Source: Phyllobacterium sp. OV277 (lineage in GTDB: Bacteria > Pseudomonadota > Alphaproteobacteria > Rhizobiales > Rhizobiaceae). From it: a stretch of 64,000 nt of DNA. A program made the position numbers and the translations under genes. Below the pieces are notes generated by a model. The model did not search any database, was not told the origin of the DNA, and saw nothing but the letters and a program-made list of their open reading frames with translations. Within the stretch, counting starts at the first letter, position 1. Each line of letters starts with the position of its first letter. The stretch covers positions 1 to 64,000 of the forward strand of contig NZ_FNIY01000003.1 of NCBI RefSeq assembly GCF_900104355.1. Direction: 5' to 3'. Positions 24,502-59,110 of the stretch are shown one piece after another.

Positions 24502-24791
24502 TTGCAGAATATAGCTCCCTGCAATCCACCCATCTCCGTCATCCTCGGGCTTGACCCGAGGACCCACGGTTAAGAAGATCAGATGAATCCGTATATTCAA
24601 CAATTTTGAATTATGGGTCCTCGGGTCAAGCCCGAGGATGACGGAGAGATGGAAGCCCGAGGATGACGGAGAGATGGGAGCCATAGGATGACGGAGATAG
24701 GTGGGTTGCAGAGAGCTATATTCTGCAAGCTTTGCGATTAGCGTTCCATCCACACTCTCCCTCATGGTGAGCTTGTCGAACCACGAACCAC
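24502..24791. repeat. composite palindromic repeat, copy 5
   Basis: An inner palindrome pair (about 24537-24567 and 24615-24645) encloses a 47-base loop containing AGATCAGATGAATCCGTAT. It is followed by extra copies of a GGATGACGGAGAGATGG unit (about 24640-24700) and then the right outer arm ending GAGCTTGTCGAACCACG at about 24791. The left outer arm is missing, so the element is asymmetric. The rest of the 455-base gap to the MFS gene, 24792-24940, shows a GAGGGGA...TCCCCTC inverted pair near 24840-24870 and no gene. Confidence 0.86.
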
Positions 24792-24940
24792 GCGTGGCAG
24801 GTTTTGCAGCGATCATTGCTAGCTCACAAAATCACAAGAGAGGGGATTTGCAGGTCGAAATCCTCCCCTCTCCTGGATTTTCCGGGAATTCAGCAGATGT
24901 GAATTCCCGAACGGTGCCAGCCCCCATAGAGGCAGGTTTT

Positions 24941-28246: not shown

Positions 28247-28696
28247 TCAGGCCTTCTTTTCCCAGCGGCCCTCGGCATTCTGCTGCCAATAGGTCAACAT
28301 ATGCCCTTCTGCCTTCAAAAGCTTCCACTGTGCGCGCGCCTGTTCAAGCTGCATCTGATCGTGCCCGTCAAACATCAGGACAAGCCGTTCATAGGCTTCA
28401 ACATTGCTGGGCGCGGCACCATCCACCAGAAAGCGCACTGTCGCCCCATTCGGATTGCCCTCACCGGTCGTCAATATGACAGGCTGCTCCTGCGGATGCG
28501 GCTCCTGATCCGTGGCATGGGCAAGAAACGATGCGTCGGACCAGGTCCACAGATGATTGTCCAGACTGTCACGCCGCTCCTGCGACCCGGTCTGGATAAC
28601 GACCTTCCATTGGCGGCTGAGCGAGCGTTCGACCAACCCCGGAAGCGCATTTTCCAGTGTCGATTCAGTCAGATGGTAGAACAGGATTTCAGTCAT
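28247..28696 (-). CDS. holC: DNA polymerase III subunit chi
   Basis: A 149-residue HolC. It begins MTEILFYHLTEST and has the chi features LPGLVERSLSRQWKVVIQ, DNHLWTWSDASFLAH and the C-terminal ARAQWKLLKAEGH with W-Q-Q. Chi links the clamp loader to single-strand binding protein during replication. In many alphaproteobacteria holC lies next to pepA, as it does here, though a repeat cluster of nearly 400 bases separates them. Confidence 0.93.
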   Translation of the reverse strand: MTEILFYHLTESTLENALPGLVERSLSRQWKVVIQTGSQERRDSLDNHLWTWSDASFLAHATDQEPHPQEQPVILTTGEGNPNGATVRFLVDGAAPSNVEAYERLVLMFDGHDQMQLEQARAQWKLLKAEGHMLTYWQQNAEGRWEKKA

Positions 28697-28740: not shown

Positions 28741-29068
28741 GGTTCGTGGTGCGTGGTTCGTGGTTCGTGGTTCGACATAACAACCATGAGGGAGAGGGGT
28801 GATGCAATGCTAATCGCCGAGGGCGCAGAACTTGACTCCTCATACCCCACCAATCTCTGTCATCCTCGGGCTTGACCCGAGGACCCACGGCCAAGGAGAT
28901 CAGATGAATCCGTATGCTCAGCGCCTCTAAGTTGTGGGTCCTCGGGTCAAGCCCGAGGATGACAGAGAATGGAGGATTGCAGGGAGCTAAACTCTGCGCC
29001 CTCGGCGATTAGCATTGCATCACCCCTCTCCCTCATGGTTGTTATGTCGAACCACGAACCACGAACCG
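28741..29068. repeat. composite palindromic repeat, copy 6 (largest, near-complete)
   Basis: The most complete copy: outer arms of about 70 nt (about 28757-28830 and 28995-29068), inner arms of about 34 nt (28854-28888 and 28934-28967), and a 45-nt central loop at 28889-28933 with AGATCAGATGAATCCGTAT. Both outer arms carry TTCGACATAACAACCATGAG, where other copies have AAGCTCACC, so they changed together. The element fills most of the gap between holC and pepA. Confidence 0.92.
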
Positions 29069-29089: not shown

Positions 29090-30589
29090 TCAGCCTTCGA
29101 AATTATCGTGCACCAATCGGTCCAAAAGGCGCACGCCAAAGCCGGAGGCCCAGGACTGGCTGTATTCCGTTGCTGGAGCGCCCATGGCGGTGCCCGCAAT
29201 ATCCAGATGTGCCCAGGCCGTATCACCGACAAAGCGCTTGAGGAACTGTGCTGCAATGATGGCGCCACCAAAACGGGTGCCGATGTTCTTCATATCGGCA
29301 TTTTTCGTATCGATCAGCTTGTCATAATCAGGACCGAGCGGCATACGCCACAATTTCTCGCCCGTTGCCTGCCCTGCATCGAACAATTGCGCTGCGAGCG
29401 TGTCATCATTGGAGAAAAGCCCGGCGCGTGACACACCAAGTGCAACCATGATGGCACCGGTCAACGTGGCAAGATTGACCATGAATTTCGGCTGGAACCG
29501 CTCATTGCAATAGTAGAGCGCATCTGCCAGCACCAGACGGCCCTCCGCATCGGTGTTGAGCACTTCGATGGTCTGGCCGGACATGGACGTGACGATATCA
29601 CCGGGACGCTGCGCATTGCCGTCCACCATGTTTTCCACAAGGCCGACAATACCGACCACATTCACCTTGGCTTTACGGGTGGCGAGTGTATGCAGAAGAC
29701 CTGTCACGGCAGCTGCGCCGCCCATGTCCCCCTTCATCTCTTCCATGCCGGCGGCCGGTTTGATCGAGACACCGCCGGAATCGAATGTGACGCCCTTGCC
29801 GACGAAAGCGATCGGCGCTTCCTTGCCCTTGCCACCCTGCCATTCCATGATTGCGAGGCGCGCCGGACGGACTGAACCCTGCGCAACGCCAAGAAGCGAG
29901 CCCATGCCAAGCTTCTTCATGTCCTTCGGATCAAGGATTTCGACCTTCACATCGAGTTTTTTGAGTTCCTCGATTCGTTCAGCAAATTCGACCGGCCCCA
30001 GAATGTTGGCGGGTTCATTGACGAGATCGCGTGCAAGGTTAACGCCCTCGGCCACGGCTTCGGCATTGGCAAAGGCTTTCTTTGCGGCATGAGGGTCGGC
30101 CACAAGAATGGTGATCTTGGCGGAAGATTTCTCTTCCTTCCCCTCATCGTCGCTTTTGCCCTTCTTGGTTTTATATTTATCGAAGCTGTAGGCGCGCAGC
30201 AGAATACCGAGCGCAAAGTCTGCGGCATTTTCGCCCGAGACCTCTGCCTCAGGCAAAGCAAGAACCACCGAAACATGTTTGGCCTTGCCGATCTTTGCGA
30301 ATGCGGAACCGCCCAGTTTCAGCCAGTCATCGGCTTTCAACTCGGCCGGATCACCCGTTCCAACCAGCACCAGACGGTCCAGTTCAGTCCCCGCAGGCGC
30401 AAGCGTGCTCAGGCTTGCGGCAAGTTTTCCCTTGAAATCCGAGACATCAATGATACGCGACAGCAACGCCTGCCCGACGACAGATTCGGCTTCGCCAGCT
30501 ACCTTACCTTCGCTGGCCAGAAGCAAAACTGCGGTTCCGTTTTCAACGGCAGCAAACTTTGCAAAACTGATGGATGGTCGTTTGGACAT
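29090..30589 (-). CDS. pepA: leucyl aminopeptidase
   Basis: A 499-residue M17 aminopeptidase. The signature NTDAEGRL is at 345-352. The metal-binding segment [12 protein letters not shown] is at about 262-273 and KGDMGGAA at about 286-293. The N-terminal macro-like domain precedes the catalytic domain. It releases N-terminal amino acids from peptides in the cytoplasm. A Lys/Glu-rich stretch (about 139-157) looks like an insertion between the domains. It is divergent from the lptF operon, with 269 bases between. Confidence 0.96.
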
Positions 30590-58792: not shown

Positions 58793-59110
58793 TGTGGTTC
58801 GATGAGCTCAGGATGAGGTGTGTGGTTCGACAAGCTCGGGATTAAGGGCATTGTTGGCTGCAAGATAATCGTCATGAGTGCAGAATTTAGCTCCCCGCAA
58901 TCCTCCCATCTCCGTCATCCTCGGGCTTGACCCGAGGACCCACAACTTAAAGGCGCTGAACATACGGATTGATCTGCTCTCCTTAGCCGTGGGTCCTCGG
59001 GTCAAGCCCGAGGATGACGGAGATGGGTGGGGTATGAGGAGTCAAGTTCTGCACGTTCGGCGATTATCTTGCATCCACACTCTCCCTCATCCCGAGCTTG
59101 TCGAAGGGGC
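58793..59110. repeat. composite palindromic repeat, copy 10
   Basis: A degenerate copy. The left side has two imperfect outer arms (GTGGTTCGATGAGCTC and GTGGTTCGACAAGCTC). Inner palindromes are at about 58913-58943 and 58989-59022, and a right outer half ends GAGCTTGTCGAAGG near 59107. The 45-nt loop 58944-58988 is the reverse complement of the loop in copies 5 and 6. It fills the gap between a convergent SDR gene and the AraC-type gene. Confidence 0.87.

Follow-up and report, generated by a model that had tools for sequence, protein, structure and literature searches.

Arm-to-arm copying as the probable origin of a matched block in a dispersed palindromic repeat between pepA and holC of Phyllobacterium

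Our findings identify the long palindrome between pepA and holC of Phyllobacterium sp. OV277 as a member of a dispersed repeat family, and they are probably best explained if this copy was shaped by template switching within the palindrome together with turnover of copies. In this account a mosaic, non-coding Phyllobacterium repeat would have come to occupy the pepA-holC spacer, with the ATAACAACC core arriving with the copy or early in its history. The perfect match of the 75-nt outer arms, above all in the GATGCAATGCTAATCGCCGAGGGCGC block, would be of later and local origin, the right arm having been copied onto the left arm after the lineage split from that of a close relative. The likeliest process would be switching of template by a DNA polymerase within the palindrome (as hairpin or cruciform, within or between strands), which may both correct one arm from the other and invert the segment between them. 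Where both arms of a hairpin have changed in concert, the usual interpretation is selection for structure; at this locus, comparison with the ortholog suggests that the match was made by copying between the arms, a caution that covariation alone is no proof of a functional RNA.

The palindrome and its genomic site

The window analysed here is a stretch of 64,000 nt at the start of contig NZ_FNIY01000003.1. An earlier reading of the sequence alone had described a nested palindrome with ATAACAACC and an adjoining stretch common to both outer arms, and on both points it proved accurate. The palindrome occupies 28741-29067 and has arms of 134 nt each (28755-28888 and 28934-29067) that are 91% complementary around the loop; its features are listed in Table 1. 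In both arms ATAACAACC is followed by the adjoining GATGCAATGCTAATCGCC. Folding of this copy gave values far beyond chance when compared with dinucleotide shuffles, both as RNA (-273.4 kcal/mol, z -27.6) and as DNA (z -28.9).

Table 1. Positions of the palindrome's parts, its neighbouring genes and the inverted sister elements
Feature	Position	Strand
holC, DNA polymerase III chi subunit, downstream neighbour	28247-28696	-
Left end, about five 7-nt units (TGGTTCG; one is TGGTGCG)	28741-28774	+
Left outer arm, 75/75 complementary to 28993-29067	28755-28829	+
Left family core (M1), ATAACAACC allele: GGTTCGACATAACAACCATGAGG	28769-28791	+
Putative conversion tract of left arm; differs from G008 left arm, equals own right arm	28797-28829	+
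Left mid stretch (24 nt), 12/24 paired with 28969-28992; many mismatches common to ortholog	28830-28853	+
Left inner arm, M3 module (TCTCTGTCATCCTCGGGCTTGACCCGAGGACCCAC), 35/35 complementary to 28934-28968	28854-28888	+
Loop, 45 nt	28889-28933	.
Right inner arm, M3 module	28934-28968	-
Right mid stretch, mismatched against left mid stretch	28969-28992	-
Right outer arm; putative donor for left-arm tract	28993-29067	-
Right M1 core, ATAACAACC allele	29031-29053	-
pepA, leucyl aminopeptidase (M17), upstream neighbour	29090-30589	-
Inverted elements, stricter ortholog set	C11 58826, 139845; C15 448450, 467780, 705460	

The palindrome lies 22 nt past the pepA stop codon, and the nearest relatives of the holC of the window are those of Phyllobacterium. 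An orthologous element is present in G008 (L151), a close relative in the genus whose flanking genes are 96% identical to those of the window genome (holC 433/450, pepA 1442/1500). The same site is differently filled elsewhere: family palindromes shorter than the window copy occur in AN3 (L030) and in P. calauticae (L031), the latter's with ACGCTCACC in both arms as another matched variant, and in place of any such element P. myrsinacearum DSM 5892 (L032) shows a short hairpin that is unrelated. In several Phyllobacterium the pepA-holC spacer holds, at the place of the palindrome, an ORF of about 200 aa for a putative glutathione S-transferase (L034:3359-3988; similar in L038, L039, L041 and L043).

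A family of mosaic palindromes and its core alleles

The M1 core GGTTCGACAAGCTCACCATGAGG, which itself lacks GTAG, the tag at one end of REP sequences, occurs 148 + 148 times in the window genome at up to one mismatch, and the same pattern read backwards, used as a control, gave no matches. The family is present in 19 of 20 Phyllobacterium genomes; in a sample of 151 genomes from the wider family the core was found in 22, and the inner module CCTCGGGCTTGACCCGAGGACCCA is more widespread (48/151). Among the copies in the window the modules are variously combined, as M1 only, M3 only or M1 with M3. Inverted pairs of M1 cores able to form hairpins make up 98 elements in about 1.6 Mb of the window genome (the arm statistics below were drawn from contig C11 and roughly 1.0 Mb of C15), only two of which lie inside a predicted ORF. 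From core to core the window copy measures 285 nt, and many others about 112 nt. Two copies have peculiarities of their own: the one at 24504-24792 contains roughly three tandem 25-nt units (AGATGGAAGCCCGAGGATGACGGAG) at 24622-24722, apparently derived from its inner module, and in the one at C13:967638-967919 both arms have AAAACAACC, a variant peculiar to it.

The high copy number, the extragenic position and the recurrence of modules in varied combinations lead us to file the family, as a kind, with the interspersed palindromic mosaic repeats (BIME/RIME-like), the likeness to RIME and Bru-RS being one of description. RIME and the Sm or AB and C palindromes of Rhizobiales are interspersed intergenic palindromic mosaic repeats too, as cited in PMC2573895, and Bru-RS1 and Bru-RS2 of the related genus Brucella are described as palindromic, intergenic, high-copy repeats of 103-105 bp (PMC2267715). 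The family also resembles REPINs, the doublets of REP sequences associated with RAYT (an IS200/IS605-like tyrosine transposase), in forming dispersed, extragenic, inverted doublets that fold into hairpins, and in REPINs compensatory changes between the arms are reported to be common (PMC3116915, PMC3733652). It differs from them in its longer arms and elements and in the absence of the gene: the RAYT domain Y1_Tnp (PF01797) had no match in the window genome, whereas the search found it in 5 of 14 control genomes. We therefore did not class the family with REPINs, since the transposase that defines the system was not found. None of the papers searched contains the M1 core sequence, and Rfam gave matches only far below gathering scores, to eukaryotic hairpins.

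The distribution of core alleles bears on the claim that ten other copies carry AAGCTCACC where the window copy alone has a changed core. That string was found on 13 arms at 7 sites in the window, and ATAACAACC is not private: at up to one mismatch it occurs on 26 arms in the window genome and on 58 in G008, with none in the 18 other Phyllobacterium. We accordingly rejected the view that it is a double mutation peculiar to this copy; it is a subfamily allele, found in both arms of several copies in the genome, the window element among them. Among the 98 elements five have ATAACAACC in both arms (0.64 expected) and six in one arm only. More generally, the two arms share the same core allele in 63 of 98 elements against 43.9 expected, a value that none of 10,000 shuffles reached. 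The proposed comparison of arms within and between copies thus came out in favour of concerted arms for the core and against them further in, for in the 45 nt inside the core the likeness within copies is on average lower than that between copies (z -2.5; 98 elements). Because of this, homogenization of arms is not a strong general rule, and the window copy, which ranks second of 98 in this respect, is unusual in the family for the length over which its arms match.

The arms compared with those of the G008 ortholog

An alignment of the four arms, two from each genome, can be divided into three zones. In the outer one, the left arm of the window copy is identical to the right arm of that copy and to the right arm of G008, save in three columns with one base in both window arms and a different one in both G008 arms. 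Arm against arm, 8 of 68 outer columns differ in G008 and 0 of 68 in the window copy (Fisher p 0.006). The middle zone and the loop hold 22 arm-specific differences that are unchanged in the two genomes; inner mismatches are kept in both (26/82 and 30/82), and the inner arms of the window copy are identical to each other. Since the loop, the inner arms and these 22 differences are shared in the same orientation, the comparison indicates that the G008 element is the same insertion as that of the window, and it too has ATAACAACC in both arms.

The 29-nt block next to the core is private to this element. At up to two mismatches its occurrences in the window genome are confined to the window copy, one in each arm, the next best match having three, and in G008 a copy with one mismatch is found only in the orthologous right arm. 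Apart from the copy's own arms the window genome has no source for the block GATGCAATGCTAATCGCCGAGGGCGCAGA, the one exact source of the changed sequence being the right arm of the copy itself. The left-arm version of G008 has no second copy within three mismatches in either genome, and a recent overwriting of the G008 arm from outside would thus lack a visible donor. Conversion of the left arm by the right in the lineage of the window genome appears to be the simplest account, with the direction read from one ortholog; had the common ancestor possessed identical arms, with a later change in the left arm of G008, the tract would be of greater age. The sequence-only reading had offered three origins for the matched arms, namely selection for pairing, conversion between arms and insertion as a unit. 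For the GATGCAATGCTAATCGCC block, conversion is the best supported of these. Insertion as a unit is the likelier source of the shared ATAACAACC, because this subfamily allele is already in both arms of the ortholog.

The first of the three origins, in which compensatory substitutions preserve a functional RNA or DNA hairpin (for a transcript 3' end or attenuation), found no support at this locus, where the 22 mismatched arm columns common to both species are unchanged, and we regard it as very unlikely. The very stable fold speaks for it, as does the gene context of M1 elements in contigs C11 and C15 (L110-L149, L212-L231, L252-L271), of which 45% lie in convergent gaps and 12% in divergent gaps compared with 17% and 29% of all gaps, though this is a rough count based on simple ORF calling that mislabels the window site itself. 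Yet the changes form one contiguous block, about 30% of the inner-arm and loop-side columns are mismatched in both species, the P. myrsinacearum site does without such an element, and inside the core the arms of a copy are no more alike than those of different copies. An effect of the element on the pepA or holC transcript is possible, and the element needs no function for its arms to be copied or inverted.

Inversion and turnover at sister copies

We compared the palindromes of C11 and C15:400001-800000 with the collinear sequence of G008. At 108 elements with collinear flanks the G008 site proved absent or short in 33 cases, diverged or replaced in 42, direct in 21, inverted in 11 and ambiguous in one. 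Sites absent in G008 offered no readable clean empty site or target-site duplication of the kind that marks a MITE, and many adjoin other repeats. A stricter set, in which the loop of the ortholog had to be the best match among all copies compared, comprised 18 elements, 13 direct and 5 inverted. The six further apparent flips (C11 72654, 369964 and 563993; C15 543524, 574470 and 787821) were set aside, as other copies match them better than the ortholog does, and they may be oppositely oriented replacements.

The five inverted sister copies, unlike the window copy, show inversion in place between collinear flanks. Two cases are the clearest. C15:705460-705590 matches in inverted orientation at 128/131 against 77% in direct orientation, with flanks of 99% and 96%. 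At C15:467780-468139, the other, the left flank and left arm are direct (115/115) and the interior is inverted, with a loop that has no other copy among the sequences compared; at C11:139845-140167 the segment inside the inner arms is inverted and the right outer arm is direct. In size the inverted segments run from tens of bases, as a loop, to the greater part of a 360-nt element, and their breakpoints, where readable, lie inside the arms at different depths, which argues for homology-driven events and against a recombinase acting on the core. Inverton-like recombination at the M1 core, with matching arms as a by-product of the flipping, is accordingly a highly improbable reading: flipped segments are indeed bounded by inverted cores, but the breakpoints fall inside the cores and differ between elements, the left arm at C15:467780 is direct well past the core, only the inner segment is inverted at C11:139845, and no recombinase is linked to the family, Y1_Tnp being the sole class searched.

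An artefact of assembly, by which two arms were collapsed or loops were oriented at random, has only a slight probability in our view. The window genome is a draft in 26 contigs and the window arm is a perfect repeat of 75 nt; set against this, perfect arms at the five flipped sites extend over no more than 20-49 nt, which is little compared with ordinary read lengths, and the tract, beside which mismatches are retained, involves both substitutions and an indel. In addition, G008 is a four-contig assembly whose C3 matches a plasmid record of Phyllobacterium sp. T1293 at the same coordinates.

Turnover gives more weight to another reading, in which the whole element was inserted, or replaced an earlier one, as a ready-made and nearly perfect palindrome copied from another family member, whose matching arms it inherited, with no local conversion. 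The diverged, replaced, absent or short sites in G008 favour it, as do the wholesale switches of core allele between orthologous sites and the standing of ATAACAACC as a subfamily marker. We nonetheless judge it unlikely for the window copy, whose ortholog is recognizably the same insertion, and the absence of the block from every other copy in its genome already disfavours it for the block. Exchange between dispersed copies does occur. The segments 28811-29011 and 58866-59066, 30 kb apart, have 201 nt in common at 90% in inverted orientation; the element to which the second belongs, at 58826-59105, is inverted relative to its G008 ortholog, and the loop of the window copy is slightly nearer to that element than to its own ortholog, hence our conclusion that such exchange takes place.

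Genome-wide, the arm alignments of orthologs contain 19 matched double changes and 19 crossed ones, each above the roughly 1.4 expected if changes were independent; an excess of matched over crossed changes was not found in these alignments (C11 and 400 kb of C15), and at least some of the crossed changes stem from partial inversions. We therefore claim conversion for the window locus and inversion for the sister loci, and do not claim concerted arms as a general rule. Reportedly, small inversions associated with hairpins in plastid genomes likewise leave loops in different orientations between close relatives; the present case differs in being a repeat family of a bacterial chromosome with longer arms.

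Both outcomes, the homogenization of an arm in a contiguous block and the inversion of a spacer or loop, are those of template-switch mutations at quasipalindromes and inverted repeats (PMC8604942, PMC8794818). In yeast, template switching between the arms of inverted repeats homogenizes arms and inverts spacers (PMC8604942), and in rRNA hairpins, bacteria included, it produces paired changes and loop inversions (PMC8794818). The family studied here differs from the reported yeast spacer inversions, with their changes of 2-5 bp (PMC8604942), in being a dispersed bacterial repeat with longer inverted segments. At the window copy we see in one arm a block change for which the opposite arm was apparently the source. 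Template switching seems to us the better account of these patterns than RecA-type recombination between the arms, though an inverted centre could result from the latter too.

In this family there are many natural loci at which the rates of palindrome self-correction and inversion may be measured in a bacterium. It is a rather improbable speculation that hundreds of such hairpins flip back and forth across the genome, with orientations polymorphic within populations, and act as a recombinase-free switch of 3'-end structure or read-through of neighbouring genes. Another family of palindromes, about 160 nt long (CACCCCCCTCTGTCCTGTCGGACATCTCCCCCACAAGGGGGGAGATC...), was observed at C11:72654-72847 (L113) and at other sites in C11 and C15; it often directly adjoins M1 elements, and some of its copies are oppositely oriented in G008.
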